From: Zygnema cylindricum
Lineage: Eukaryota > Streptophyta > Zygnematophyceae > Zygnematales > Zygnemataceae
Assembly (NCBI GenBank): GCA_037447655.1
Contig: JBBHKE010000244.1
Location: 196,001 to 260,000 of the forward strand
Length of the DNA stretch: 64,000 bases
Reading direction: 5' to 3'
The notes under the pieces are model-generated. The model did no database searches. It had not been told where the DNA came from and was given only the letters and a program-made list of their open reading frames with translations. The position numbers and the translations under genes are program-made. Below, piece by piece: positions 7,861-55,717 of this stretch (position 1 is the stretch's first letter; each line of letters starts with the position of its first letter).

Positions 7861-9535
7861 CTTCCCTCTCCTCCTCTAATCTCCTTCCCTGTGTCAAAAC
7901 CCAATCCTTTCCTCCCTCCCTACTTCCCTCCCTGCTTTATCAAAATCTCTTCCTTCACGTCCACTCCTCCCAATGCCCCCTGATCCCCTCTCCCCTCTCA
8001 CCTCTCCCATTGTACCCTCTCCTCTCTTCCCTCTTCCCTCTCCCCTCTCACCTCTCCCATCGTCCCCTCTTCCCTCTTCCCTCTCCCCTCTCCTCTACCC
8101 TCTGATTTAATGTCTCTGCCTACACTTCCAGTCCTCTCCCTCTTGTCGCCTTCCCCTCCCTCCCCCTCACCTTCCCCTCCCCTTTCCCTTCCTTCCCTTT
8201 TCCCTCCCCTCCCTCCCCCTCACCTTCCCCTCCCCTTTCTCTTCCTTCCGTTTTCATTCCCCTCCCTCCTCCCTCCCTTCCCTTCTCCCCTCCCCCTAAC
8301 TACTCTCCACGGGCCACCTTGCGGAGAGTTTTCGGGGGGGGAGAGAGGAAGGGAGGGAGAGAGAGAGGGAGGGAAGGTTTAATGCAGGCGAGCGGGGAGG
8401 GGGGGAGAGGGGGGAATGCACTGAATAATAAATGTTGGGAGGGGAGGGAGAGTTTTGGGCAGCTAGGCAAAATTTCAGGCAAGAGAGATGGAGGGATTTT
8501 ATTGGGGGGAGGAGAGGGAGGGAGGATTTTTTTCTGGATGGGGGAGCGGGAGGGAGGGGTCCTGGGATATGGGGAGAGGGAAACCAAGAGAGGGAAGAGG
8601 TTTAATTTTTCAGGGGGGCAACTGGCAGCAAAAGGCCCCAGATGGAGGGATAGGGAGGGACAAGGAGGGAAGGGAGAGGGAAGGAGGAGAAGATGGGAGG
8701 GGATGTTGAGATACGACTCTTTTCCCTCCTTTCCTTCCGCTCTCCTTCGTCTCTCTTTCCTCCCTCTCGTCCCCCCTTCTCGCTCTCCCTTTCCTTCTCA
8801 ATCTCCCTCCCCCTCCTTTCTCCAATCTCCTCCTCTAATTTTCTCTTCTCTCCTCTCCTCTCCCCTCTTCTTTTCATCCTCTCCTCTCCTCTACTCTTCT
8901 CCTCTCCTCTCCTCTCCTCCCCTCTCCTCCCCTCCCCCTCCCCTCCCCTCTCCTCTCCTCTCCTCTCCTCTCCTCTCCTCTCCTCTCCTCTCCTCTCCTC
9001 TCCTCTCGACTCCTCTCCTCTCTCCTCTCTCCTCTCCTCTCCTCTCTCCTCTCCTCTCTCCTCTCTCCTCTCTCCTCTCTCCTCTCCTCTCCTCTCCTCT
9101 CCTCTCCTCTCTCTTCCTCTCTCTTCTCTCCTCTCCTCTCCTCTCCTCTCCTCTCCTCTCCTCTCCTCTCCTCTCCTCTCCTCTCCTCTCCTCTCCTCTC
9201 CTCTCCTCTCCTCTCCTCTCCTCTCCTCTCCTCTCCTCTCCTCTCCTCTCCTCTCCTCTCCTCTCCTCTCCTCTCCTCTCCTCTCCTCTCCTCTCCTCTC
9301 CTCTCCTCTCCTCTCCTCTCCTCTCCTCTCCTCTCCTCTCCTCTCCTCTCCTCTCCTCTCCTCTCCTCTCCTCTCCTCTCCTCTCCTCTCCTCTCCTCTC
9401 CTCTCCTCTCCTCTCCTCTCCTCTCCTCTCCTCTCCTCTCCCCTCCCCTCCCCTTCTCCTCTCGTATGTTCTCCTCTCTCTTTTCCTCTCCTCTCCTCTT
9501 CTCTTCTCCTCCCCTCTCCTCTCCTCTCGTCTCTG
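7861..9535. repeat. Pyrimidine/purine-rich block with (TCTCC)n array
   Basis: From 7861 to about 8300 the + strand is C/T-rich. From about 8330 to 8700 it switches to G/A-rich, then back to C/T. Between about 8941 and 9440 it is an almost pure tandem array of the pentamer CTCTC (TCTCC phase), some 500 bp long, with a few irregular units near 9005-9125. Long ORFs run through it on both strands only because the tract lacks stop codons. Homopurine/homopyrimidine tracts like this can form triplex (H-DNA) structures. Confidence 0.9.
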
Positions 9536-10512: not shown

Positions 10513-10736
10513 CTACACCGTGTATTGCTATGTGTTCATGTTTTTGTCGCCACTTAAAAGCATCTTTTCTCCGTACACACTTCTCCGATTTTTGATTGGA
10601 AATCACCAATCGGAAGGTAAGGATCTTGATTTTCAACCCGGGCCTTCGGATCGACAACCCGACTAGTGTGCACGGAGAAAAGATGTTTTAAGCGGCGAAA
10701 ACACATTAACACCAATAGCAATAGACGCTGTAGTTC
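10513..10736. mobile_element. Complete small TIR element (224 bp) with hairpin arms
   Basis: The left end tacaccgtgtattgctat and right end atagcaatagacgctgta are inverted. Just inside lie long inverted arms: catcttttctccgtacacac (about 10560) and gtgtgcacggagaaaagatg (about 10667). Both ends abut a TA dinucleotide, consistent with TA target duplication. It has no coding capacity, so it is a non-autonomous MITE. Confidence 0.8.
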
Positions 10737-13846: not shown

Positions 13847-14096
13847 CCCTGCTCGTTATGTTCCTTGAACCTAAAATAGCGTCAATGAATTGTTGTTTCC
13901 TTATCGCTTATTCTTTAAACGGTTCAAAACCAACCACACCATTCGGAAAGTGAATTTAAATTCATAGCACGAAGATAATCCCACAGTAGTAATTCCTTAA
14001 CCTAATGACAACACAGTACTGTATTTGCGGCTTTCATTTGCGGCTTTCAGTGAGGTTGAAAGAGGTCCAAGCAGAAACTACACCACTAATCGTCAT
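13847..14096 (+). repeat. Direct repeat, right copy
   Basis: Second copy of the repeat at 11640-11884. It is too long to be a target-site duplication of the intervening retrotransposon, so segmental duplication or a larger composite unit is more likely. Confidence 0.85.
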
Positions 14097-14303
14097 TAGT
14101 GTCAAAGATTTTTTCACCACTTAAGACATCTTCTTTCCGTGCACACTTGTCGGATTGTCAATAGGAAGCCAATAGGAGGAGGTCGCAAATAGGAAGCTGA
14201 TAATTCCTTCCAATAGCAAAGATCAAATTGACAATCCGACAAGAGGAAAAGATGTTTAAAGTGGCGAAAAAAACTTTAACACTGATAATGATTAGCAGTG
14301 TAT
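14081..14303. mobile_element. Complete small TIR element with hairpin arms
   Basis: The ends ctacaccactaatcgtcat and aatgattagcagtgta are inverted, with inner arms catcttctttccgtgcacac and gacaagaggaaaagatg. Layout and length match the 10.5-kb element, so they belong to one MITE subfamily. Confidence 0.75.
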
Positions 14304-18100: not shown

Positions 18101-19319
18101 AAAAAAAAAACAAAACATACCAAACCACAAACCAAACCAGAACCAAACGAAAATACACAAAACCAAAACCAAAACCAAAACCAAAACCAAGGAAACAAAA
18201 AAAAAAAAAAAAAAACTCCTCTTGTCACGTCACGTCAAGTCACGTCACTTACACGTCCGAAAACTTGTTGCTCCCTCCTCCCCTCACCACGATCCTCCTC
18301 CTCCAATTCCTCGGCGGCTGCGGTATATCCCCCCGGTCCATCGCCCATAGCAGCGACCCGTCCTGCACCAAATCCGGAGGCGTGACACATGTCACAGGCT
18401 CCCCCCCTCCCCCTCCCCCCCCTCCCCCCTCCCCCCCCCCCCCCCCTCCCTCTCCTCCCTGTCCGTACGGAGGATCTTTATTCTGCCAATCCTGGGCCTG
18501 CTCGCACGTGAAAGGATGTTTTCCGATTCGCGCGCGAATGGCTTCGTACGTTTCGAGGGAGGGAACTTTCCTCCACTTGAGACACGTGGCACACTGGACA
18601 GTGAAGGCGGTGAGAGTGGCAGCAGGGCGGCGAGAGGGAGGGAGAGAGTCGGGGGGGGGGGGAGGGAGAGGGGAGAGGGGAGGGGAGAGGGGAGGGGAGA
18701 GGGGTGGAGAGAGGGGTGGAGAGAGGGGTGGAGGGAGGGGGAGTGGTGAGGGGAGTGGTGAGGGGAATGGTGAGGGGAGAGGTGAGGGGAGAGGTGAGGG
18801 TAGGGGTGAGGGGAGTGGTGAGGGTAGGGGTGGAGGGAGAGGGGTGAGAGGGAGAGGGAGAGGGATGAGATTTAGGGGGTTTGCGTTTGGAGGAGGAGGG
18901 TTTGGGAGGGAGGGAAGAGGGAGTGGGGGAGGGAGAAGGGAAGGAGAGGGTAAGGTCACTGGAAGGAGGTTTGGGAGGGAGAGGGGAGGGAGGGAGAGGG
19001 GAGGGAGGGAGAGAGGAGGGAGGGAGAGGGGAGGGAGGGGGAGGGGGAGGCGCGACGGAGGGAGGGGCGGGGAGATCGGAGAGAGAGGGGGAGGGGGAAG
19101 GGGGAGAGGAAGGTAGGGTTGAGGAAGGAGGAGTGGAAGGAGAGGGGGATGGTTGTACGGAGGGTACAGAGGGAGGGGCAGGGAAGGTGGGAGGAGGTGT
19201 TTCAGAGACGGACTGACTGGCTTCGGGGGGGAGGGGAGGGAGAGGGAGAGGGAGAGGGAGCAGGTGGAGTGGGAGTTGGGGAGGAGAGGGAGGAGAGAGA
19301 GGGAGGCTCCTCCCCCTGG
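15169..19319 (-). CDS. CW zinc finger plus methyl-CpG-binding domain protein
   Basis: Three minus-strand exons join in phase: about 19319-18253 (5' limit uncertain), 17143-17090 and 15550-15169. The first has a long Pro/Ser/Leu-rich region from polypyrimidine DNA, then a CW domain (QCATCLKWRKVP ... PFTCEQAQDW ... VTCVTPPD). Next is an MBD that crosses all three exons: GSLLWAMDRGDIPQPP and NWRRRIVVRG, then YYHSPCGKSLRSMNDVER, then FLSEHPEYVQQG. This order is that of plant MBD2/MBD4-type proteins, thought to act in nuclear chromatin. A Gly-rich insert lies between the third and fourth CW cysteines. The C-terminus is Ser/Thr/Lys-rich. The start is unresolved: the ATG at 19327 (MDNQGEEPP) opens a frame that stops after 42 codons near a 7-C run, while the CW frame stays open to 19319 with no ATG. 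This suggests an upstream exon, or an indel or assembly error in the tract. Confidence 0.82.
16475..16669 (-). other. 64-codon ORF in an intron of the CW/MBD gene, unrecognised
   Basis: The frame reads like protein (ILADCQEILEAWIPLDRVV, ARENLHPNFLDESYNFIRN) and lacks low-complexity bias, but I recognise no family and see no splice frame joining it to the host gene. A remnant of an inserted element is possible. Confidence 0.25.
17306..17425. repeat. C/T simple-sequence tract
   Basis: Two runs of 14-17 C alternate with ctctct stretches (17316-17333, 17363-17378). They form a duplicated unit (about 49 bp) within an intron of the CW/MBD gene. Confidence 0.85.
17720..18230. repeat. A-rich intronic tract
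   Basis: Repeated aaaacc and aaaacaa units with several pure A runs (17904, 18080-18110, 18198-18213). On the gene's own strand it is a T-rich intron segment. It contains the exon-edge copy described next. Confidence 0.8.
17993..18066 (-). pseudogene. Decayed copy of the CW/MBD exon 3' end plus donor
   Basis: On the + strand, acttattgctccctcctct and caattcctcacc match the exon's 3' edge at 18249-18314 (acttgttgctccctcctccc, caattcctcggcgg). On the minus strand the copy still reads ERGGSNKF, against RGGGSNKF in the real exon. It lies downstream of the true donor in gene sense. The copy is stop-terminated and unlikely to be used. Confidence 0.7.
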
Positions 19320-19690
19320 TTATCCATAGAGGGGGACAATGGTATAGCGACAGGGGAGGAGAGAAGAATGGGAGTGCAGAAAAGAGTGGAAAGGAGAAGA
19401 GAGAGAGAGGGGGAGAGAGAGGGAGAGAGGGAGGGAGGGAGAGAGAGGGAGAGAGAGGGAGTGAGAGGGAATCAGAGGAAGGAGAGAGAGGAGAGGGAGG
19501 GAATGAGAGAGAAAGGAGAGAGAGGAGAGAGAGAGGAGAGTGAGAAGGAGAGAGAGAAGGAGAGAGAGAAGGAGAGAGAGAAGGAGAGAGAGAAGGAGAG
19601 AGAGAAGGACAGAGAGAAGGAGAGAGAGAAGGAGAGAGAGAAGGAGAGGGAGAGGGAGAGGGAAAGAAGGAGAGAGAGAAAAGTGTGGAA
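18630..19690. repeat. G/A-rich (polypurine) tract
   Basis: About 1 kb of GGGAGAGG, GGTGAGGG and later GAGAGAGAAG (19540-19640) units on the + strand. The part below 19319 encodes the Pro-rich region of the CW/MBD protein on the other strand. Long + strand ORFs rich in Arg/Glu/Gly are by-products of the repeat. Confidence 0.85.
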
Positions 19691-20245: not shown

Positions 20246-20265
20246 TCAAAGAGACGAAAAAAAAC

Positions 20266-20588
20266 CATAGTTGTTCACGGCGTTTAGTGCGAACGATTTA
20301 GTCGCGACGAATTATACGTAACAAACGCATTGAACCTTTTGAAAAAATCGTAAAAATCGTTAATGAATTTTCGTCCGTACTATTCCGTACATGTAAACAA
20401 AAATAAATTTCACATATACTGCAGTTTGTACCATTTTCGTACATTTTCCGTATCTTTTCGTAATAGCTCGTACATTTTTGGTACAATTTCGTACATTTCC
20501 GTAAAATTTCTTCCGATTTATTCAAAAGTCACGAATTATACGTTTTAATCGGAACAAAGGAAAAAATCGCGCGATTTGAACAACTATG
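20266..20588. mobile_element. hAT-like non-autonomous element, copy 1
   Basis: Perfect 12-bp terminal inverted repeats, CATAGTTGTTCA and TGAACAACTATG. The interior is full of CGTAC-type motifs (cgtacattttcgta). An apparent conserved ORF (NFRPYYSVHVN) is only the repeat read in one frame. Other copies: 24444-24804 and 34084-34565; the third has an 8-bp target duplication. Confidence 0.75.
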
Positions 20589-20659
20589 AAAAAACATTAA
20601 CACTAATAAGTAATAACGATTCACGGCGCAGCGAAAAGAAACATTATTGACGCTAATAG

Positions 20660-20880
20660 CGATCACGGTGTACCGTACACCGCGTTTTAGCTATTATTCT
20701 TCAGAATTTATCACCAATCAAATTTCTCCGTGGCACAGGTGTCAAATTTTCGTTTGGAGACCGCTGATCAAAGGATACGAATCTCATTTTTCCATCGCAA
20801 CCGTCGGATCAGTAATGTAGCAGATGTGCACGGAGATAATCTAGTTTTCGGGCCAGAAACGAAACTTCACAGATCCAATA
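20660..20880. mobile_element. TIR element remnant with CTCCGTGGCAC arms
   Basis: Starts gtacaccgcgttttagctat. Inner arms aatttctccgtggcacag and gatgtgcacggagataat and the internal gcaaccgtcggatc resemble those of the 19.8-kb element, so it is a related subfamily. A second copy lies at 24887-25080. Confidence 0.6.
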
Positions 20881-20937
20881 ATCCTTTCCTCCTTTCTAAA
20901 CAGTCCTCCTACACAAAATTTTTTTTTATATACTTAC

Positions 20938-24343: not shown

Positions 24344-24443
24344 TCATAGTTCAAAAGTAGGTGACCGTACGCCCATACAATATGCCTATTGTATGCAAAA
24401 CATACAATATGACCTTAAGACCCATATTGTATTGGCCGCAAAA
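24344..24443. mobile_element. Truncated copy of the CATAGTTCAAAAGTAGG element
   Basis: The left 95 bp match 19966-20060, including catacaatatgaccttaaga. The sequence then breaks at the hAT-like element that starts at 24444. Confidence 0.7.
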
Positions 24444-25137
24444 CATAGTTTGTTCACGGCGTTTAGTGCGAACGATTTAATCGCGACGAATTATACGTAA
24501 CAAACGCCTTGAACCTTTTGAAAAAATCGTAAAAATCGTTAATGAATTTTCGTCCGTACTATTCCGTACATGTAAACAAAAATAAATTTCACATATACTG
24601 CAGTTTGTACCATTTTCGTACATTTTCCGTATCTTTTCGTAATAGCTCGTACATTTTTGGTACAATTTCGTACATTTCCGTAAAATTTCTGTTCAGTTTA
24701 CCGGACAGAAAGTACATCGCGTTTTTTTCCGATTTATTCAAAAGTCACGAATTATACGTTTTAATCGGAACAAAGGAAAAAATCGCGCGATTTGAACAAC
24801 TATGAAAAAACATTAACACTAATAAGTAATAACGATTCACGGCGCAGCGAAAAGAAACATTATTGACGCTAATAGCGATCACGGTGTACCGTACACCGCG
24901 TTTTAGCTTTTATCCTTCATAGTTTATCACCAATCAAATTTCTCCGTGGCACAGGTGTCCAATTATCGTTTGGAGACCGCCGATCGAAGGATATGAATCT
25001 CATCTTTCCATCGCAACCGTCGGATCAGTAATGTGGCAGGTGTGCACGGAGAAAATATAGTTTTCGGGCCAGAAACGAAATCAGAAATCCAATAATCCTT
25101 TCCTCCTTTCTAAACAGTCCTCCTACACAAAATTTGG
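24440..25137 (+). repeat. Segmental duplication, right copy
   Basis: Partner of 20262-20920, about 4.2 kb away in the same orientation. Beyond 25137 the sequence departs into a short acttcacaa-rich run. Confidence 0.85.
24444..24804. mobile_element. hAT-like non-autonomous element, copy 2
   Basis: Same family as 20266-20588, with one variant base near the left end (catagtttgttca) and a perfect right end. Part of the right copy of the segmental duplication. Confidence 0.75.
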
Positions 25138-32540: not shown

Positions 32541-34012
32541 TACATCGCCAATCGCTATTAGCGTAGTGTACGCCAATTCCGTCCCGTTTTTTTTTTATTT
32601 TATTCTCCATTAGCGCAGCTTATTCTATTTTTTTCTGTACGCCATTTAGGGTTTTTTTCCAAGTACCGTACAAAATGAAAGTACGTTGTATTTTAAATAG
32701 TGTGGTGTACGGTCAGTTTTGGACCGTATAAAATTGTACCTTTTTAAGTGAAAAAGTATAATTAATGAGTTCTAGTAACCGCGGACGCATGAAGGTATGC
32801 GCTCTAAAAAGGAGATGAAATCGGGCTGTCAAATATTACGTTCGCACATATTCGTCCAACAACCACGTTTCGACTGTGTGAAACGTACAATTTGTGTACG
32901 ATTTGTCAGATTATGTACAAATACCTATATTAGTGTAAGCATGTTTGCGACCGACATTTACCTTTTTCAAAGACCCGAATTAGGGTCAAGTTCCATCAGT
33001 CGAAAAGTGGGGTAGTTTACAGAAATCCGAGATTATCCGTACCAGTTCGTACCGCTTATTTTGTTTTTATACGCGAAACAACATTGCAGGAGAATCTTGC
33101 CAATAATCGGACTTGAAGGTAATACTGACCGTCGGATGTTCATCTGCGAGGCGTTCGCTTCATTTTTCTCTGTAGCTGCAAACGTACTTGTAGGAGGTGG
33201 GTTGGCAGATACAAAAAAAAATTAATCGTGACACGCTGGAAAAATAAGCTACGTGTCACGATGGAAAACCAACGAAAATTGACGAAATTTGTACATGGTA
33301 TGTACTTTTCAAAATGCAACTGAAAATTAAAAAAGTAATCTTGAAACGGTCCTTCGTCGCGCAATTTCTTTCGTCACACTATTTTCAGCTAAGGATTTTC
33401 GTCATGTTCGAAAACAGTAACCCTAAAAAATGAGCTGGCGTAAAAGACTGACGTTTGCAGAAAGTACAAAATTTATGTCGTATTATGACTTGGTACGCAG
33501 GTACATGGTACGCAACTGAAGATTTGAAGCGAAATTTTCTTTCGTCACACTATTTCCAGCTAAGGATTTTCGTCATGTTCGAAAACAGTAACCCTAAAAA
33601 ATGAGCTGGCGTAAAAGACTGACGTTTGCAGAAAGTACAAAATTTATGTCGTATTATGACTTGGTACGCAGGAACATGGTACGCAACTGAAGATTTGAAG
33701 CGAAATTTGTCGGGGTGAAGATTTTTAAAAGATTTTAAATATCCGGTCAAAACCCACGTGGGGTCACTCAATACATAACACGTGGATAACAGACTCTTCG
33801 TGATGGAACATCGACTCAATTAACCCGGCCCGTAGAGTTGGCCGTACGATTACAGAAATGACTGATGGAACTTGACCCTTAGAATTATTAAACAATTAGA
33901 ATGTATGTTTTTTTTCAAAATTTTCAAATTCTTAATTAGCGTAAACCACGGTAATTATTCATATACGCTAAAGAAACTTCTACGCTAATAGTTATTGGCG
34001 GTGTACTGTACC
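32541..34012. mobile_element. 1.47-kb TIR element, mid-size relative of the 9.7-kb element
   Basis: The left end tacatcgccaatcgctatta and right end agttattggcggtgta are inverted. Its first 300 bp resemble the left end of the 34.7-kb element (ccgtacaaaat ... gtgtggtgtacgg ... ttgtacctttttaagt). Its last 110 bp resemble the right ends of both the 44.4-kb and 44.6-kb elements. The interior holds a tandem duplication. No transposase-like frame, so non-autonomous. Confidence 0.75.
33365..33708 (+). repeat. 172-bp tandem duplication in the TIR element
   Basis: Two near-identical units (about 33365-33536 and 33537-33708). Each contains tttctttcgtcacactattt, tgagctggcgtaaaagactg and gacttggtacgcagg. 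The near identity suggests a recent duplication. Confidence 0.9.
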
Positions 34013-34083
34013 GAAGGAAATCGGCATACCGTGCAAAAAGTCCCTATACCGTACGGTACCTTAAAGATTACGTGTGTATTATA

Positions 34084-34565
34084 CATAGTTGTTCACGGCG
34101 TTTAGTGCGAACGATTTAATTGCGACGAATTATACGTAACAAACGCATTGAACCTTTTGAAAAAATAGTAAAAATCGTTAATGAATTTTCGTCCGTACTA
34201 TTCCGTACATGTAAACAAAAAGGGTTTTAACATATACCGCAGTTTGTACATTTTTCGTACAGTTCCCGTCTCTTTCGTCATGGCTCGTACATTTTCTGTA
34301 CAATTCCGTACGTTTCTCGTAAAATTTATGTTCAGTTTACCGGACAGAAAGTACTACGAAGTGCAACATATCTTTTCGTCAAAGTCCGTATTTTTCCCGT
34401 ACAAAGCCGTACATTTAACGTAAAATACTTTACAGTTTCCGTAAATTTTCCGTCCAGTTTACCGGACAGAAAGTACATCGCGATTTTTTGCGATTTTTTC
34501 AAAAGTCACGAATTATACGTTTCAATCGCAAAAAAGGAAAAAATTGAGCGATTTGAACAACAAGG
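34084..34565. mobile_element. hAT-like non-autonomous element, copy 3, with 8-bp TSD
   Basis: Starts CATAGTTGTTCA. The right end reads TGAACAACAAGG, diverged in the last four bases. An identical 8-bp gtattata lies immediately outside both ends (34076-34083 and 34566-34573), as expected for hAT insertion. Longer than the other copies because the CGTAC-type interior and the accggacagaaagta block are duplicated. Confidence 0.8.
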
Positions 34566-34717
34566 GTATTATACGTGGTTAACAAAGTACGTATTTATCC
34601 ACCTATACGAAAACCCGCACATTTTACAAAGTTATGACTCGCGATGACACTGGTGAGCTGGCCAAATTTGAAAATTTGCCACTTTATCAGTACACCGCGC
34701 ATCGTTATTAGTGTCAA

Positions 34718-35750
34718 CGACACTAATTTCGGTTCTTAAAATTTTGATTTTTTTCCAAAAATAGTATTCGTGATTTTAATTTTTCCTTAACTATAATTGA
34801 GGTTCCGTACAAAATAGCGTCAAGACCGAAAGTACAACAATGTATAATTAGTATGGTGTACGGATGATGTTAGACGGTACATATTTGTACTTTTTTACTT
34901 AAAAATATTTAAAATTAATTATAAATTATACGCGCATGCATATGAACATGCGCTAAAAAACTGGGTTCACTCTCGTCGCCAAAAACCTCGTTCGCACACG
35001 ATCTCCAATAATCGCCTATTCTGCATTGTGAACGTAAAATATATTCGCATGTGCGAAGTCATGATGTTACACTTAAAGCAGTGAACTGTTTTTATTTTAC
35101 ACGTCCACGTAAACTGTCTTAAAACTGCGTACTCTTGATTCATGTGATTTTTTACTGTTCAGTTTATATAAACATTATAACATGTATTTTGTCCAATTAG
35201 CGTCAATATGTACTCCATTTCGGTACAACGAACGAATATAGCGTAAATGTTTATTCTAATATGGTGTCTATAGGTGATTTCACTCCAAATTAGAATTAAT
35301 GTATACGTTAATAAGGGGTCGAAGTGACAATGGACCACAAATTACAATTAATGAATTAAAATAATTAGAATAAAAACAACATTTGGCGTTGATGATATTT
35401 GGGACGGCTTAACGTCAAATGCAGATAATCCACAGAAAAATGGATCCTTTATTGAACGAATCTCATCCATCCATTTTTTTTTGTTTTTTTAGGGATGTGA
35501 CGCTGCATTGTCATTTTGTCAAACGAACACATTCTCATTGGTTTCATGAAAAAGCAAGCGAAAATATCGTCGCCACCTTCGTTTCATTTCCATGGATTCG
35601 AGGTCGCATGTGTCGGCTCCTTCTCCCTCTGCATATGGCGGGTCACTCCATTTACCTTTCATTGCCTTCGCCCCTCTTTCACGCTACATTTTTTTCCGAA
35701 CCTACCTATGCTCATCTCCCTCTTTTAATTTTGAAAGTTTTTTAAAATGT
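34718..35750. other. Left interior of the candidate 9.7-kb element, no gene
   Basis: AT-rich with gtacaaaa and ttgtacttt motifs shared with the 1.47-kb element. Short ORFs at 35419-35852 show no family signature. The copia-derived sequence starts at about 35755. Confidence 0.45.
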
Positions 35751-36054
35751 GCTCTCTCTCATTTATGTCGGAAACTATGGGGGGAGGGAGCAGAAAAATC
35801 AGACCGACGAGTTTGGACCAAGGGCTCCCAAAGGTTTATGTCATTTTTGTAAGAAACCTGGGCACTATATGGCAGAGTGCACTAAGCTAACCGAGCTTCG
35901 GTTAAAGGAGGGGCAGACCTGCGGTACCCTGAGAGGAAAGAAAAAGGCCCTTGTGACACAAGTACATGAGGCGGAATCCGAGGACGAGGACGATGAGCTC
36001 CTTTTGGTTGGGGAGTTGGAGGCGAAAAACGAGGTCGAAATTCCACGAAGGTAG
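35749..36054 (+). pseudogene. copia gag remnant with zinc knuckle
   Basis: The frame carries one CCHC knuckle, CHFCKKPGHYMAEC, near residues 30-43, followed by a Lys-rich and then acidic stretch. This is the C-terminal end of a copia gag; the capsid part is missing. It ends in a stop just before the protease frame. Confidence 0.85.
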
Positions 36055-36072
36055 AAATGTGCTTACGGTGGA

Positions 36073-37290
36073 TTGAAAGGTGAAGCAGGCTGGATTGTAG
36101 ATTCAGGTGCTTCCATGCACATGTGTAAGGATAGGCACCTATTCACTAAGATAAGAAATATTCGCACCGTAGAGATAAAGTACAGGGATGGGAGGATAGT
36201 CACCGCTACTCTTGTAAGATCGGTAGATTTGAAAGTGTTAGTAGATGGAAAGACATCCATAGTAACATTCTCCGATGTATTGTTTATTCCGGGGCTGAAC
36301 AAAAACCTCATCTTTACATCCGTATTAGATGATAAAGGTTTTTTTATTAGCACTAGGGAAGGAGTCTTTACTGCTAGTTTTGAGGAGGATGTCTATTTCA
36401 TTGCTGAGAAAGGTAGCCATGGGATGTTTAGGCTGGTTTTAAGTAATGAAAAGAAGAAACTTTATTATGCTGGTGTTCATGATATTATGATGTGGCATAA
36501 GAGGCTTGGGCATGTGAATCTAGACAAGTTAAGAGAGATGAAAAAGATGGGAGTGGTGGAAGGGATTAAGTTCAGTGAGAATGATAATATAAGTGATTGT
36601 AGTGGATGTGCTCAAGGTAAAACACAAAGATTACCCTTTCCTAAAACAACCACCTATAAGGGAGAAAAAATTCTGGATCTAGTACACACAGTTATTTGTG
36701 GACCGGCTAAAGTGCCCTCACCGGGGGGGAAGAGATTTATGATGACTGTCACTGATGATTGGTCTCGGTATTCCCGAGTGTATTTTTTGAAAAACAAGTC
36801 CGAAGCTCAGGATAGTTTTAAACAATATAAAACATGGAGCGAAAAACTCCATGAAACTCGAATCAAGAGAATACGGAGTGACAATGGTGGAGAGTATACT
36901 TCTAACCAGTTTGAGGATTTTTTGAGGGAAGATGGGGTCCAACACCAAAAGACAGTTCCAGAAAACTCGGAACAGAATGGGGTAGCTGAAAGGTTAAATA
37001 GAACACTAAGTGATAGTGCTAGAAGTATGTTGACAGATAAGAAGATAGGAAAAAGGTTTTGGGCAGAAGCAATGAACTATGCTAATTACCTCAAAAATAG
37101 AGTTTTTACTTCAGCTATTAAAGATCAAACACCTAATGAGAGATGGACAGGCCGGAAACCAGACATATCTCACATAAAGGTTTTCGGCAGTCAAGTATTC
37201 AGTCTAGATACTGATCGGTCTAATTGGAAGCTAGATCCTAAAGGAAAACCGGGATACTTATTAGGATATGATGACGATGTTAAAGGATAA
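36073..37290 (+). pseudogene. copia protease and integrase frame
   Basis: About 405 codons. It starts near the protease active site, WIVDSGASMHMC. A pre-integrase HHCC region follows (WHKRLGHVN ... DCSGCAQGK), then the integrase core with RSDNGGEY and NSEQNGVAERLNRTL. The first catalytic Asp, normally in a D-V-CGP segment, is missing: the sequence reads HTVICGP. With the terminal stop this indicates an inactive integrase. Confidence 0.9.
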
Positions 37291-37344
37291 AGTGTTTATG
37301 ATCAAAAAAGGGAAGATATAATCTTAGTAAAGTATCTAGTAGTT

Positions 37345-38313
37345 ATGGATGAACAAAAGTCTGTGGATCCCTTCAAGTATACAAAGTCAGTAAAAATCAG
37401 ATTTGAGTCAAAAAATTCTGATGACTTTGAGCTTCCTAACTATCCAGGTTTTAGAGAAGATGACATTCTTGCAGGTACAAATCAGACCGAAAAGGACTCG
37501 GCTGTGGAAACTCCAGTGACAACTCTACCCGAAGCGAAAGACGTGGTGGAAATTGATTCGGAATCAAGGGATAGGGGAGAAGCCGAGTTTGTTCGAAAGA
37601 ATCCACGAGAACCATCTATTCCGGCCTCAGATTTTGAGGGGGGGAGGAGAAGTAGCAAAAGACTGCAAGAAAAACAGGTTAATAACAAGGTAACTAAACT
37701 ATCTCATCAAGATGAACCTCAAACTTATGGAGAGGCGATGACTTGTCGAGAAAGAAATCGGTGGAAGACAGCCATCAATGAGGAGATGGCCTCAATTATG
37801 GCAGCCGATACTTGGGAGCTGGTGGATTGTCCACCTAACCGAAAACGAATTGGTTGTAAGTGGGTTTTCAAATTAAAACTGAACCCAGATAACACAATCG
37901 AGCGCTACAAGGCACGACTAGCGGCAAAGGGATTTATACAAAAGGAAGGAATTGACTACGAGGAAACCTTTGCCGCGGTGGTCAGATTTCCCTTCGTCCG
38001 CATACTTTTCAGCCTGGCAGCAGCGGAAGACATGGAAGTGCACCAGATGGACATCAAAACAGCCTTTTTTCATGGAGAATTGGAAGAGGAGATCTTCATG
38101 CGACAACCCGAAGGGTTTGTGGAGGAAGGAGAGGAGAGTAAGGTATGCCGGCTGATTAAATCTCTTTATGGTTTGAAACAGGCGCCTCGACAGTGGAATA
38201 AGAAGCTTGATGAGTTTCTTACCGGTCTAGGATATATTCGGATCCGCTCAGATCACTCAATCTATGTTTTCGAAGATTTAGGAAGGTTTTATATTTATAG
38301 CAATTTATGTTGA
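37345..38313 (+). pseudogene. copia reverse transcriptase, N-terminal frame
   Basis: Contains DTWELVDCPPNRKRIGCKWV, YKARLAAKGF, VHQMDIKTAFFHGELEEEI and SLYGLKQAPRQW, the standard copia RT blocks. The frame ends just before the YVDD box, which lies in another frame at about 38308, so a frameshift falls between. Confidence 0.92.
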
Positions 38314-39300
38314 TGATTTGCTTGTTTTAAGTAAATCAATGGAAAAAAATAATAAACTGAAAACCGATCTTAAGGGGATATTTGAAATGAAGGATATGAG
38401 GGAAGCAAAATATATTTTGGGAATTCAAGTAGAGAGAGACCGAAAAAGAAAAATTATAAGATTGACTCAAAAGGAAGCCATAGGGAACATGCTTGAAAAA
38501 TTTCAAATGGATAAAGCTAATAGTTGTACAACTCCAATGGAGTTGAAGAAGGGAAGTGAGGGGAGTGAGGAAGAAGGAGTCATAGTCTTAAACAAGGAAT
38601 TATCTCCTAAAGAACAGAAGTTCATGCAGACTATTCTTTACAGGCAAGTAGTGGGAAGTCTAATTTATTTTATGAATTGTACCCGGCCGGATTTAGCTGT
38701 AGCTGTAGGAGTGCTGAGTACAAGTCTAAATGCTCCCACTAAGAGGGATTAGGAAGCAGCTAAGAGATTCCTTAGATATTTGATAGGAACTAGGGATCTA
38801 TGGTTGCATTTGGGTGGGGAGAATACTGACATCACCACTTGGAGTGATGCTACTTATGGTGATGCTCCGATGAGGAGATGCACTTCTGGATATGTATTAT
38901 ATGTGGGTGATGGGGCTTGCTGTTGGAGTAGCAAACAGCAAAAGTTATTGCTCAGTCCACCATGGAGGCTGAGTATATGGCCTCTTGCTCTGCTGTAAAA
39001 GAATTGATGTGGGTCAAGTCTTTGCTTGGTGAGCTTGGTCACCTTAAGAGTGGTGTGCAGAATTTTTTTTGTGATAATCAGGCAGCAATCGCTATTTCTG
39101 CCAATCCTAAACATCATTTTAAAGCCAAACACATGGACATCAGACTCAGCTTTGTTAGAGAGAAAGTAGAAAACAAAATAATCAGTTTAGAGTACAGACC
39201 AGACAGTGAGATGGTAGCAGATATGATGACCAAACCTGTGCCTTCCCCTAAGCTAATTTTCTGCAGGGAGAAGTGTGGTCTGAAATTAAAGATTGACTAG
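38305..39300 (+). pseudogene. copia RT C-terminus and RNase H, broken frames
   Basis: The YVDDLLVLS active-site segment is followed by the thumb region and VVGSLIYFMNCTRPDLA. RNase H blocks follow (TTWSDATYGD, SGYVLYVGDGACCWSSKQQK, MEAEYMASCSAVKELMWV, DNQAAIAI, KHMDIRLSFVREKV). A stop near 38750 and a frame change near 38970 break it. Confidence 0.9.
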
Positions 39301-39313
39301 AAAATAAGGGGAG

Positions 39314-40435
39314 TGTAGAAATTAATGGTCCATTTTAAGTATTTTCTAGGTCTAAATAGAAATATAGAAAGAAGCCGAGGCAGTCTACCTCTAACTTCTT
39401 TCTCCAACTCTCAAACTTGTCGCAGTCACTGAGAAATTGGAGAGGGAGCTAGAGCCATGGCTACCTAGGCTATCCAGAGGTTTACGGGAAATTTATATTA
39501 GTTAGGGGTTTATTTACTAAAAGGTATGTGCCGGCCACAGGATTTGATCTTGGTACCTACCGGCCGGCAAACAGCAGTTAGCCGGTAGCCTTAGCCGTTA
39601 AGTCTAGAACTAATGTTACGTAGTATATGTTTGATATTTATTTAAACATGAATACGTAGGATAAATCATTTAACTGTAATTGTTTACCGGATACATAGAT
39701 CCGGTAATGTATATGTACGGATTATGGTACGGACAAGAAATCAATACCGCGCATTTATTTCTTTAGTGAAACGAATACCGCGCATGTATTTATTACGGCT
39801 ACGATTAAAATCGAATTTAATCGGACGATCGGAATTAGCGCCGAGATCGCGGAAGAAGATTTCAGCGGTTTGTGGCCATCGCCATATCGGATGACAAGTG
39901 GCAAAATTACATTCGATCGTGGTATCTCCGGAGATTATGGCACCGAATCCGGATATCACCTGTGTCGACATTTAGGCCATGTCGTACAATGTCCGTACAT
40001 AAAGTACGACGGCAGCTGTACTTTCACGTACGAAACTGAAATCTGATTGGTTCCATACATCAGTAGATAGAGTCTGTGAGAGAGATAGGACTTAGAAAAA
40101 TTAGGAGATAGGACCCTCTCTCCGAGAGAGATTCTGTACAAGGGGTCAACTTTGACCCTCCATAACTTACTGCTCAGGGGAGCAAATTCAGAGATTCTTT
40201 TTGCTATCGACTCAGGGGAGTCTTGCCTTCATAGGGCTGAGATTGGTTAGAGTTATTTTCTGCCAGGGTGGCAGTTATTTTTGCTGAAACACAAAGGGGT
40301 CAGGGTTATCTTAGAGGCTTATTGGAAGCTGTCCACTCTGGGGACTTATGGAGGTCTTAGATTTTCACAACCCAAGTTAACCGGGGATCCGCCGGATCAA
40401 ATTGCCTTATGTGGGCAAAGGTTGAGCCTCGGTCC
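39314..40435 (+). mobile_element. Probable copia 3' LTR, right limit unresolved
   Basis: Starts after the polypurine tract. It includes repeated RCCGGY-type stretches (39530-39600), a TA-rich part (39610-39720) and ccgagagagattctgta near 40120, but no terminal CA with a matching 5' LTR can be set. The right part may instead belong to the surrounding element or the 3' flank of the minus-strand gene. Confidence 0.45.
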
Positions 40436-41065
40436 TCAAGCGAGATAAACAACCATGTTCGATGTGCGGTGACATCGGGGGGGGATGTAGAGAATTTGCG
40501 GAAAAGGATTCGCTTCCGGGTTTAGGGGTCGGGGTTCACCATACCTCCAATGTTCCGGCCATTCGGCAACCGAAATATAATGCTTGGGTCGAGGCACGAA
40601 GCTGTCCATTTCCTCCCCTCTCGTGGGAGGAGGAAAATACCAATCGCAATGCTCAACCGGGTATAGAGGTTGAGGATGCGGATGAGCGATTACAATGGCT
40701 CTCTCCCCATTCGGCGTGGGAGGTGCCCCGAACACGTCGTCGTCATCATCAAATTCATCCTCACATTGTTTTTCCTCACTATCCGGGGTTTGTTCGTCCT
40801 CGGTGGTGGGATCATCCTCGTTTTTCCACACCACGATGTCGGTGGGTTCCAAAATTTCGGGTTCGGGTTTGTCTTCCAGCGGTTTTTCACCATCCTCGAT
40901 GCTCTCGTCGCTATACGAAGACGAGGGGACGTATAATTCGTCATTCTCATCTTTCACTTTACGCTTACCCTTTGCTATCTCCTTTTTCCTACATATCTTT
41001 CTTCGTGCGTCAATCCCCCCACCTTTTTCGAGGGTGGCCTCTCCCCCCACTCCTTCCTCCTCCAC
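40436..41065 (-). CDS. Acidic low-complexity ORF, 209 codons (3' part of candidate gene)
   Basis: Starts EEEGVGGEATLEKGGG, then a basic patch (RRKICRKKEIAKGKRKVKDE) and a long acidic part with DEFDDDDDVFGAPP. The C-terminus is Pro/Trp/aromatic-rich (HCDWYFPPPTRGEEMDSFVP) and ends at 40436. It lies downstream of two similar acidic ORFs on the same strand (41457-41155 and 42163-41513), so together they may be exons or decayed parts of one gene. No known domain recognised. The non-repetitive C-terminal part looks like real coding sequence. Confidence 0.45.
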   Translation of the reverse strand: MEEEGVGGEATLEKGGGIDARRKICRKKEIAKGKRKVKDENDELYVPSSSYSDESIEDGEKPLEDKPEPEILEPTDIVVWKNEDDPTTEDEQTPDSEEKQCEDEFDDDDDVFGAPPTPNGERAIVIAHPHPQPLYPVEHCDWYFPPPTRGEEMDSFVPRPKHYISVAEWPEHWRYGEPRPLNPEANPFPQILYIPPRCHRTSNMVVYLA

Positions 41066-41154
41066 GGTCTCACAAAACCCTATTTTTTTATTATCCTTCT
41101 TTTTGTACCTAATCTTCCCCTAACCTCTTTCGACCCACCCTCTTCAACCGTCGC

Positions 41155-41457
41155 CTATTTTCCCTTTCTTTCCTCTCCTAACTCTGTCTTCCTCTCCCTC
41201 TCCTCACTCGACAACTTCTCTTCCCTAAAACCCCCACCATTTTCCTCCTCGACGCCCTTATCAAGAAGTATTAATTTTCTTTTTGTTTTTTTACATTTTT
41301 TTTCTACCTTTTCCCGTGCCTCACTTCCCTCACCCTCTTCTACCGTCGCCTCTATCTCCCCCTCGCTTACACCCATTACCATCTTTCCACCCTTCTCCTG
41401 TAATGGAATTTTTTCTCCCATAACCATATCACTTTCTACCGCCTCCCCCCTCATCAC
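41155..41457 (-). CDS. Glu/Lys-rich ORF, 100 codons (possible middle exon or fragment)
   Basis: Composition matches its neighbours: VSEGEIEATVEEGEGSEA, then a KKCKKTKRKL basic patch. It lies between the ORF at 42163-41513 and the ORF at 41065-40436. No convincing splice pair was found on either side. It may be decayed coding sequence of the same gene. Confidence 0.3.
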   Translation of the reverse strand: MMRGEAVESDMVMGEKIPLQEKGGKMVMGVSEGEIEATVEEGEGSEAREKVEKKCKKTKRKLILLDKGVEEENGGGFREEKLSSEERERKTELGEERKGK

Positions 41458-41512
41458 ATTTACTAATTCACCCCTTTCCTCCCTCCCCTCCTCCGATAAA
41501 ACCCCCCCCCCT

Positions 41513-42163
41513 TTATGCTACCTCATCCAAATTGGTCTCTTCCCTTCCTCCCCCAACCGGTGTCAATCCTTCCACCTCTACCTCTTCTCTCACCTCCCTT
41601 TCATGCTCCCTCCACTCGGGCAGCACCCTTCCCTCCTCCGGTAAAATCTCCTCCTTTGCTACCTCATCCAAATTGGTCTCTTCCCTTCCTCCCTCAACTG
41701 GTGTCAATCCTTCCATCTCTACCTCTTCTCTCGCCTCCCTTTCATGCTCCCTCCCCTCCGGCAGCACCCAACCGGTTTGTAGCGAAGTGGCCGCCTCCCT
41801 TTCTCTCGGTGATTCCTCCGCGGTACACCTTTCTCTTATCACGGTTTCCGAGACATCTCTTTCCCTCTCTACCCCCCTCGGTGTTTGCCTTTCCCTCGTG
41901 GGGCTTTCTCCTCCCACTCCATCCCTTCGTACCTCTTCCCTTTGTACTATTGGCCGACGTCGTACACTACGCCAAGTTAATGGAGGGTGGCGACGACGAT
42001 ACGGCAAGACACTACGCTGTCTCCTATACGACTGGCTGCTGCCCTCCATGTAAATTAGCCACACGTGACAAAAAAAAAACGAAAAAGAGGCGGCTACACA
42101 AAAGGATGAGAGAATACACGAGTTTGTCTTAAAAATGACAGGTCGTACGTAAAAATAACGCAT
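41513..42163 (-). CDS. Arg/Glu-rich ORF with internal protein repeat
   Basis: A likely start is the internal Met at about 42050 (MEGSSQSYRRQRSV). The C-terminal half has two copies of a unit of about 45 residues: EHEREAREEVEMEGLTPVEG, GREETNLDEVA, then KEEILPEEGRVLPE. A third unit begins but meets TAA right after NLDEVA at 41513, next to a run of C (41505-41514). So the repeat continues in DNA as pseudocoding sequence. No family recognised. Confidence 0.4.
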   Translation of the reverse strand: MRYFYVRPVIFKTNSCILSSFCVAASFSFFFCHVWLIYMEGSSQSYRRQRSVLPYRRRHPPLTWRSVRRRPIVQREEVRRDGVGGESPTRERQTPRGVERERDVSETVIRERCTAEESPREREAATSLQTGWVLPEGREHEREAREEVEMEGLTPVEGGREETNLDEVAKEEILPEEGRVLPEWREHEREVREEVEVEGLTPVGGGREETNLDEVA

Positions 42164-42199
42164 AAGGTTTTAACGCATTATATGCGTTCGAAATATACT

Positions 42200-42515
42200 T
42201 ACAGATTGTGTTGTTCGCGACCACACGAAGTCGTCGCTAGCCCAATCAATTTGATCATTCCAACAGTGTGACGACGAAACAAAATTAGGAGTTGTGGCGG
42301 TTGACTACTTAGAAGATTCTAAGAATGGCAACGACGTGCAAATTACACTCACAGACTGCGTGGTCCACGACAAAGGAAAGTCGTCGTGTCCCTAATTTTT
42401 TTGGATAATCCAACAGTGCGACGACGAAAGTGAATCAAAAAATCACGCGGTTTAATGATTCTGCGATTCCAACAATGGGACAAAGACAAAGCCTCGTCGA
42501 CCATACGAAGGTTCA
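42200..42515 (-). repeat. About 150-bp tandem units ending in splice-donor-like sites
   Basis: Read on the minus strand, two units contain tcgtcgtcRcactgttgga, then cgacgact ... cRtggtcg and end caatct/gcagtct before gtaagt (42202-42197) or gtgagt (42352-42347). A third, partial unit lies at about 42515-42465. Each looks like an exon end plus donor copied in tandem, within the candidate minus-strand gene. Confidence 0.55.
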
Positions 42516-42914
42516 TACTTATTGTACTAACTAAAAACAAAAAACTAAAATATGCCTCGTATTGTAGTTTGTCATTTTTATCGTTGTCGTGACGACGAAT
42601 TGTCGTCGCCAGTTCGATTTCTTCATCCACGCGTCGGCGCTTCAATGTGGCCGCCTGCTAACAATATTAGTATATTAGTCACACAAGCGACGACACGTTG
42701 TCGTCGGTGTTTCACGACGGTGCAGGAGGATATAACATAACAACATTAAGAAAATGTGGTGGGGGCGTGGAAAAAAAAATATAAATTCTAACGAACACAT
42801 AATTGTAGAGATAAACAAAATGCCACAATATAAGCGAATTCTATATTGAGAAACAAAATGTAAGCAGCCGTAAAAAGTCATATAAGGTAAGAATAAAAAG
42901 TTAATATTGCTTAC

Positions 42915-43314
42915 ATGTATTATATTCGCCCGTATAGTGTTCCAGAAACTTCTTCACGGTCCTCGGTATAAGGCAATCCTTTCCTTTTGTATTACAATCC
43001 GCAATCATCCAATTGATTACACGAACACGTGCAACCTTTGTCGACACGTGTTGGAGCTTGCGTCTCACCACCGAGCTGATACCGTGGTCCACACGCGGTG
43101 AGTCTGGCGGTAAGTCCGGAGATGAATTTGGGGGTGAACCGAAATCCGACCCACCGCCTTCCATGAGGGTGTCATCATTTGGTGATCCCATCCCTCCACC
43201 TGCCTCTCCCTCCCCCTCTTTCTCGCCCCACTCCATCTCCTCCTCAACCGGAGGTGGGAAAAATACAGCGGGAGCTCTGGCTTTCGCCGCAAAAAAGGTG
43301 GTAATGGGCCACAT
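42915..43314 (-). CDS. First exon of minus-strand candidate gene in the 9.7-kb element
   Basis: ATG at 43314; open for 133 codons to a consensus donor (cat, gtaagc) at 42914-42909. The Pro/Glu/Gly/Asp-rich N-terminus is followed by a compact segment (RRKLQHVSTKVARVRVINWM, then DCLIPRTVKKFLEHYTGEYN). The latter has the spacing of a helix-turn-helix-like DNA-binding region, as found in some transposon-linked proteins; this is a weak inference. The next exon could not be fixed by phase. A TATA box lies 123 bp upstream. Confidence 0.5.
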
Positions 43315-43436
43315 ATTTTCTTAAGATAGTCACGACAACTTGTGAAAGATAAATATGAAGCAACAAAAATAAAATGCAACAACGAAGGTAAATGCGAAGG
43401 GAGGAAAATAGTGCCATTGTTGGAGTTAACGACGAG

Positions 43437-43444
43437 TATATATA
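43437..43444 (-). promoter_or_regulatory. TATA box of the minus-strand candidate gene
   Basis: tatatata, followed on the minus strand by a short leader and the ATG at 43314. Distance (about 123 bp) and orientation fit a core promoter. Confidence 0.5.
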
Positions 43445-43449
43445 GGAGG

Positions 43450-44383
43450 GGAAGGGAATATGTTTTGAAAAAAAAGAGCGAAATGCTTGGTAAAAATTTG
43501 AACATTCAAAATTTTTAGATCAAATATTTTGTTTGAAGTCAAATATTTCTATTTTAAAAACGACACGGTGAGAGCGGGAAAGTTTTAAAATTTGCGTCAG
43601 TTTTCAACGTGAGAGTATGCACGTGGTTGACAATGGACGTTTTTCATGAAAAAGGCGTGAGAAAACATGGCAGCTCAGTGAATGTACGGATCTTTCTTGG
43701 AAAGGCAGCGTGTAAGACATGCTTGTTTTGATGCATATTAAAAAAAGCCATAATGTTTGCGTGGATAAAAAATAAGACACGTGTAATCTTTGGCGACCAA
43801 TCACGTGACGTGAATTATTAATTGGTTGGTCGGTATGTACTTTTTGGTTCATTTTAGTGTCATCATTTACTCTAATACGGAACAACGTTGACGTTAATAC
43901 AGGTGAGACGTCTGAAAGATAGACGAGGTAACACCCTTATTACAATTAAGACTCATATTAGCATACTTAACTCTAATAAAACCACCCAAAAAGGACGTTA
44001 TTAGAATACATGAGATACGGACGAAGGGAAATACGGCCATACGTCCAAGTTACATGTAGAAACGGCGTGGCATGTTAACCATTTCCGTAAACTTCAAACA
44101 AAAAAAAACGAAATTAAACTTTACGTTACGCGGTATAGCGTTAACACGTAACCGCCGTAAAATTGTCTGATCGGTACGGATACTCGATTTGGCGCCGTCT
44201 TACAATTTTTAAGATTGTGTACGGTTACATGGATTAATGTTTACAATCGTACGGAGAATATTCCATTTTTGCTGTCCCCAAATTAGCGTAAACGCCGAAA
44301 TTAGAATAAACCTTTTTTTTTCAAATTTTCAAATTCTTAATTAGCGTCAATGACGGTATATTTACTTACACACTATTTAAACT
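43450..44383. other. Right interior of the candidate element, no gene
   Basis: AT-rich. From about 44281 on it carries subterminal sequence shared with the 1.47-kb and 221-bp relatives (caaattttcaaattcttaat, tagcgtcaatgacggta). Confidence 0.45.
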
Positions 44384-44572
44384 TTGACACTAATAACGAT
44401 GCGCGGTGTAATGTTAGGGTGTTCAGTTATTCACACCGGCAGCAAGGAATGTCTGCATATGATGTTTGTATAATGTTACCCTATATCTGGTAAAATATCG
44501 GATAACATCGGGTAACGTTGCATGAACATCAGATAAACATTATACAAATACTGTACAGTAAAGTACTGTACT

Positions 44573-44793
44573 GTACACTGCCAATCGTTATTAGCGTTGT
44601 GTACGCTAATTCCGTCCCGCTTTTTTTTTTTTTTATTCTCAAATAGAATTATCCACACTATTTAAAAAAACCCTAATTCTCAATTAGAATAGGCGATTCT
44701 TCGAAAATTTCCAAATTCCCAATTAGAGTAAACCACGCTAATTATTCGTATACGCTAAAAAAACTTACACGCTAATAACGATTGGCGGTGTAG
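44573..44793. mobile_element. Complete 221-bp TIR element in the release factor promoter region
   Basis: The left end gtacactgccaatcgttatt and right end aataacgattggcggtgtag are inverted. Its ends match both ends of the 1.47-kb element (gtgtacgctaattccgtccc at the left; aaccacgctaattattcgta at the right), so it looks like an internal-deletion derivative. It lies 176-396 bp upstream of the release factor start codon. Confidence 0.8.

Positions 44794-44968: not shown

Positions 44969-55717
<10,749 letters not shown>

Follow-up and report, generated by a model that had tools for sequence, protein, structure and literature searches.

What is the structure at positions 34691-44410 of the window, a 64,000-nucleotide stretch of the Zygnema cylindricum genome (C185:196001-260000 in our numbering of its contigs)? 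A sequence-only reading had described it as a candidate 9.7-kb transposon with perfect terminal inverted repeats (TIRs) and an unknown gene, perhaps the autonomous member of a new or divergent superfamily with a TA target. We conclude, with a probability of about 0.92, that it is a dead member of a family of large DNA transposons belonging to the pogo branch (DDE_1, DDxD) of IS630-Tc1-mariner. It is a TIR element with linked ends and a TA duplication, and its sister copies contain transposase exons that are absent from the window copy. Its two ends are as follows.

34691-34717, plus strand: left TIR, 27 bp including the TA, matching the right end at 27/27 positions; the same terminus occurs in the sisters.
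44384-44410, minus strand: right TIR, 27 bp including the TA, exact; present in 6/6 fetched sister right ends with 0-2 changes.

The repeat, TACACCGCGCATCGTTATTAGTGTCAA, is found once per strand in the window, and a comparison of all pairs among 29 related termini (position weight matrix, PWM, score of at least 10) gave 27/27 for this pair alone, the runner-up reaching 24. The exact repeat with a TA at each end therefore stands as first described.

To place these ends in the genome (352.8 Mb, 2689 contigs), the left end was searched with a 300-bp query, and 40 of 1343 first-look candidates were scored. At least 41 matches were listed at 91-100% identity, the window's own included, and 40 of those listed cover at least 293 of the 300 bp. 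Twenty left-end loci of about 9.8 kb each were fetched (labelled L009, L020 and so on), and right flanks were obtained for six sisters, picked as apparently near-complete. Both ends co-occur in all six, at 9507, 9940, 10462, 10343, 10241 and 12023 bp, and the six are 88.0-96.5% identical to one another. The first coding exon of the internal gene lies inside every one of them, so that the proposals of a single element with paired ends at similar spacing elsewhere (9.5-12.0 kb), and of a gene linked to its TIRs, were both borne out.

TA stands on both sides of seven of seven elements (the six sisters and the window copy), no two of which share both flanks. For the C2254 sister we found an empty site with a single TA: its joined flanks match L019:9670-9385 (268/286) and L009:2534-2249 (258/286) with no interruption, about 43 aligned bases lying left of the junction and the remainder right, and 60/60 bases across the junction are identical in both loci. 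Two shorter L009 matches likewise span this junction, and in L019 the matched sequence forms the left flank of a different member of the family. Since the one-TA site is uninterrupted, the TA was duplicated on insertion, as the proposed TA target required. The C2321 flanks point to another candidate empty site, in L027, whose alignment is less tidy and has gaps at the junction. For the window copy, none was found in the sequence examined (window and fetched stretches). In that sequence AC precedes 18 of the 36 distinct termini found with up to 4 mismatches; the data suggest an insertion preference for ACTAGT-like sites. As a separate observation, a repeat containing TGCGCGCAGG followed by TA (L009:2249-2534, L019:9385-9670, L009:88-320, and flanking sequence of elements C2254 and C238) has been hit by these two members beside the motif.

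The nature of the family was disclosed by the sisters. Locus L020 carries, in the interval corresponding to the middle of the window copy, a minus-strand helix-turn-helix (HTH) exon and two DDE exons, one of which matches DDE_1 (PF03184) at 26.4 bits (cut-off 22), the other having no Pfam match alone. When the exons of L010 were joined at predicted splice sites, the resulting protein of 471 amino acids matched DDE_1 at 44.6 bits (E 1.5e-11, same cut-off). Reading most copies by eye, we found a DD36D catalytic triad whose three D residues lie in MDETH, VDNCGG and QPAD, the second and third being separated by 36 residues; single copies vary, L020 having E at the second position. Transposase exons are present in 16 of the 20 fetched loci. 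Of these 16, L010 alone has complete, stop-free versions of all three exon groups; the upstream gene region of that copy holds a long terminal repeat (LTR). The ratio of nonsynonymous to synonymous change (dN/dS), obtained by rough counting with stop codons left out, from six elements and, for the parts it covers, the right block of the window copy, and including divergence that is partly post-insertion decay, was 0.26 for the HTH exon and 0.34 and 0.33 for the DDE exons (six copies). It was 0.32 for the C-terminal tail, in a frame shifted by one from our first guess, which gave 1.49. A search of the PDB with the transposase returned only a chance match (E 0.5). As the sisters encode a DDE_1 transposase, the family belongs in the pogo branch and not in a new superfamily.

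The window copy itself is built of three blocks.

34691-35767, plus strand: left conserved block, made up of subterminal DNA and what is probably the 3' end of the minus-strand gene.
35768-40369, plus strand: 5'-truncated Ty1/copia element with Pfam rve, RVT_2 and Pol_BBD matches.
39314-40369, plus strand: 3' LTR of this copia, two LTR copies flanking its relative in L014.
40367-44410, plus strand: right conserved block, 90.1-95.5% identical to six sisters.

The left block aligns at 89-95.5% in 18 of the 20 loci up to 35767, with exact stops at 35769 in L019 and at 35766 and 35767 in two copies of L025; the alignment reaches only about 35506 in L011 and L021. Homology to the sisters restarts at 40367 in the nine loci that show it. 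The copia thus sits where sisters carry transposase exons, the corresponding gap in L020 being about 4.6 kb with minus-strand exons. Its domains are ordered rve then RVT_2, that is, integrase before reverse transcriptase, with frame breaks; its zinc knuckle (zf-CCHC, 20.1 bits) falls just under the cut-off of 20.8, and a second LTR copy, queried with 39314-40374, was not found in the window, so no 5' LTR was recovered there. Longer relatives exist in other loci, that of L014 having LTRs at both ends. Consequently, the interior is not one unknown gene, the truncated copia having been overlooked, and the window copy is not the autonomous member: it is a dead, non-autonomous relic, with its transposase exons absent and its remaining frames broken, the gene being interrupted by frameshifts and by the copia. 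The same copia family or its LTRs were also observed in the fetched stretches of L010, L014, L015, L018 and L027; in L014 and L015 the copia runs, with respect to the element, in the direction opposite to that in the window. A copia insertion preference for these elements is possible.

Upstream of the position of the transposase exons, and on the same strand, the element carries a long coding region with no recognised relative, for which we use the term orphan.

43437-43444, minus strand: putative TATA-box-like TATATATA, upstream of the first exon.
42904-43314, minus strand: first coding exon of the orphan protein, 137 amino acids open, best of six frames (z 3.9), dN/dS 0.66 (seven copies).
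41155-42053, minus strand: acidic coding region of low complexity, containing a 141-bp (47-codon) tandem duplication and frameshifted in the window copy.
40375-41119, minus strand: downstream part of the orphan coding region, which the copia cuts short, dN/dS 0.42.
35448-35453, minus strand: AATAAA near the left end, a possible polyadenylation signal.

By a codon measure, four of the five scored pieces were best of six frames (z 5.5 for 40499-41098), the last piece of 42 codons (40375-40500) being the exception; the minus-strand gene with a TATA-like box was thus upheld for most of its length, but it is broken. Open reading frame (ORF) length was not significant as coding evidence (P 0.05, 0.37 and 0.07). 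Third-position changes predominate among the copies, weakly so in the acidic piece, and dN/dS was 0.66 for exon 1, 0.65 for the acidic part and 0.42 and 0.39 for the downstream parts, with off-frame values of 0.69-1.83 for gene parts other than the C-terminal tail. The true frame of the acidic part (0.65) barely differs from its off-frames (0.69 and 0.86), which is weak coding evidence. Most likely, the orphan part is protein-coding and was under selection during the spread of the family, more weakly than the transposase. No orphan exon matched Pfam at cut-off in the profile check proposed earlier; a sub-threshold Microcephalin match (E 0.018) fell in low-complexity sequence. Two orphan exons compared with 5.8 billion proteins gave nothing at E of 1 or less in a search that requires shared exact five-residue words. 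AlphaFold models made without an alignment (mean predicted local distance difference test 41.5 and 58.5) were uninformative, as was Foldseek with the second model, all matches having E above 5. An Ulp1-like protease assignment of the C-terminal piece was dropped, with no Pfam support. The last orphan part ends, by eye, in a coiled-coil-like stretch. We also observed an intron-like stretch at 42180-42760 (minus strand) with two 95-bp copies of 70.5% identity, each ending in a donor-like GTRAGT, and with CGACGAC/GTCGTCG motifs.

How the orphan region relates to the transposase is the point on which an alternative survives best. In L020 the downstream orphan region (5646-6768) runs on towards the transposase exons, and the HTH exon has no start codon ahead of the HTH, an acceptor-like site abutting the conserved sequence; hence the transposase probably needs an upstream exon. 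Most likely, the orphan region and the transposase exons would form a single transcription unit, with the orphan region as its 5' half, and splicing may yield an orphan-transposase fusion protein. The gene in which no transposase had earlier been recognised adjoins the transposase exons upstream on the same strand, and most likely it is part of that unit and not cargo from an unknown source. The alternative is an element with two genes, one for a pogo transposase and one upstream with an accessory role, comparable to the second ORF of CACTA elements, with no fusion. The selection upstream (0.39-0.66), weaker than that in the transposase (0.26-0.34), and a junction phase that varies between copies speak for two genes, whereas the missing start codon, the acceptor-like site and an in-phase fusion that is possible, by eye, in L020 speak against them. 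We hold this arrangement to be possible, though a single unit is preferred. For the orphan region of such a unit, we would guess at an extra module for DNA binding or multimerisation that helps distant ends to synapse.

That the orphan protein is itself the transposase of a new TA-target superfamily is very improbable. The orphan exons have no Pfam match, two of them have no protein match within the limits of the word-based search, and the region is under purifying selection; the sisters, however, carry in the same element a DDE_1 domain with its D/D/D triad, which is the most strongly constrained part.

Large size is typical of CACTA/EnSpm-type elements, and the CAC..GTG termini, subterminal motif clusters and a second coding region are features in common with CACTA/EnSpm and CMCT (Mirage, ESTA, Plavaka) elements. 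TTAGYGT/TTAGAAT motifs are concentrated in the outer 1.3 kb (12 of the element's 15, the counted interior being largely copia). According to the available text of PMC12730594, the duplications of ESTA families are TA, while in CMCT lineages the ends are mostly CA..TG and the duplications 2-5 bp long. Plant CACTA elements make a 3-bp duplication (PMC4158355, in part), in contrast to the 2-bp TA found here, and the transposase family differs: nine of the 26 listed L020 ORFs plus the joined L010 protein gave only DDE_1 and weak HTH_Tnp_Tc5 matches, with no CACTA-type or CMC family transposase. A CACTA/CMC-type element with a TA target, such as Mirage or ESTA, a reading drawn from the termini and given up once the transposase proved to be DDE_1, thus has a slighter chance still. 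Finally, that two ends of different elements face each other by chance, as a window dense in related termini (29 sites) might allow, is refuted by the same two ends and interior in 6/6 sisters and retains a practically nil probability.

Compared with known systems, the family resembles pogo elements (Lemi, Mover, Fot-like) in DDE_1, a triad spacing of 36, short TIRs and TA, with a weak HTH_Tnp_Tc5-like region below the profile cut-off. A survey of pogo, in its available text, gives DD36D for Mover, DD29-42D for Lemi, TIRs under 40 bp with, for most families, a TA duplication, elements of 1.2-5.2 kb and transposases of 300-977 amino acids (PMC7386202). The family differs in its 9.5-12.0 kb, about twice the surveyed length, several predicted introns and a large orphan upstream coding region. 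PlantMar, the DD39D mariner-like elements of plants, have in common the TA duplication and the green lineage, but the family here has DDE_1 and a spacing of 36. As for hosts, the available parts of PMC7386202 name one green alga with Fot-like elements and, for land plants, only the small Lemi clade of eudicots; those of PMC7325037 mention two pogo-like Selaginella sequences and report no PlantMar from Zygnematales. Zygnematophyceae are not named among pogo hosts in these parts of either paper, and, among the papers listed by literature searches on pogo, CACTA, miniature inverted-repeat transposable elements (MITEs) or DNA transposons in Zygnematophyceae, none had a title or abstract that describes an element like this. 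What is new is the large size, the large orphan coding region and the zygnematophycean host; the mechanism would be ordinary.

Several observations weigh against the pogo assignment or against the gene model attached to it. HTH_Tnp_Tc5 stays under its curated cut-off of 22.2 in both L020 (20.3 bits, E 5e-4) and L010 (15.0 bits, E 0.024), and the placement combines domain profile, triad and TA. The six full-length members (9507-12023 bp) lie outside the published pogo length range, which is descriptive and not defining. No transposase exon was seen in four of the 20 loci (L009, L011, L014 and L021; 9.7-9.9 kb each), and none of the copies seen has every part intact. The splice sites are predictions from sequence, and the phase of the orphan/HTH junction differs between copies owing to an A-run. 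Lastly, the termini of the window show no significant excess of inward-facing order (9 adjacent pairs against a null mean of 7.2, P 0.16), so that the window alone is insufficient to prove end pairing.

On the pogo reading, one minus-strand gene region would stretch across the element, beginning close to its right end and finishing close to its left, in the order orphan region (exon 1, acidic repeat region, coiled-coil-like tail), HTH exon and DDE_1 catalytic exons. The DDE_1 transposase would cut and paste the element at TA, as family knowledge and the TA empty site indicate. The window copy may have received a Ty1/copia in its orphan coding part, and a later deletion may have stripped out the transposase exons and, from the copia, its 5' LTR and the beginning of gag, the order of these events being our reconstruction. 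It would then be mobile only with transposase from a sister.

Related ends are abundant in the window. The 29 TA-flanked termini spread over 2100-60154 of the 64 kb; with up to 3 mismatches, a degenerate terminus gave 18 sites against 0.00 expected (100 shuffles), and a PWM score above 9 gave 31 sites against 0 in three Markov nulls, the matrix being partly circular, as it was built from the window's own sites. The TIR pattern had no match in viral contigs. There are two subterminal types, labelled initially by eye, and leave-one-out scoring of positions 27-56 returned the label in 21/21 sites; the 9.7-kb element has one end of each type, like its smaller relatives.

44574-44792, plus strand: 219-bp non-autonomous relative with the same left and right end types.
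32541-34005, plus strand: 1465-bp non-autonomous relative with the same left and right end types.
45479-47496, plus strand: 2018-bp relative, ends matching at 24/27.

A subterminal match to smaller relatives had been claimed for both sides. It held on the right (44299-44410 against 33894-34005, 76%; 44323-44410 against 44705-44792, 74%), but the left is thin, with about the first 36-60 bp and one 61-bp patch at 74%. The 219-bp, 170-bp and other window relatives share the terminus type with the element and, as non-autonomous MITEs, differ in being too short to encode a transposase. L009 contains a 222-bp MITE with the very ends, of which 87 bp come from the left end and 41 bp from the right, about 95 bp of other sequence separating them; hence short derivatives of the family do form. 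Most likely, the small relatives would be mobilised by this or sister transposases. Terminus pairs were also noted at spacings of 158, 170, 199, 203, 219 and 224 bp, as was a second terminus subfamily (10514-10732, 14079-14302) with longer, symmetrical ends.

Elsewhere in the window, an exon of glutamyl-tRNA reductase lies at 5778-6926 (among the matches listed, 74% to Ceratopteris, 72% to Closterium and Selaginella, and 75% to the Joint Genome Institute protein Mesen1, which we take to be Mesotaenium endlicherianum). In a FastTree analysis of the window and 28 sequences picked from 120 listed, it fell into one group with Mesotaenium, Closterium and SM000189 (presumably Spirogloea; support 0.99), Chara and land plants lying outside, which makes a zygnematophycean alga the most likely host. 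Left of the element there is a repeat of about 650 bp (20262-20900; 24440-25114, 91%; a third, part copy at 34083-34561) with terminus-like motifs inside, and long polypyrimidine and polypurine tandem repeats occupy 8850-9520 and 18390-19690.

These results show how a single window misleads, the transposase being absent here and present in 16 of 20 sister loci. For two genomes, the Zygnema genome paper puts MITEs at 4.3 and 11.6% (PMC11096116, available text). The family gives a probable origin for the dense TA-targeted MITE population of this genome. Hosts have repeatedly domesticated pogo transposases, as in the genes CENPB, POGZ and JRK (PMC7386202). The known range of sizes and domains among pogo elements would be extended by a family of this kind, large and present in many copies, with introns and an orphan region under selection, in an alga closely related to land plants.

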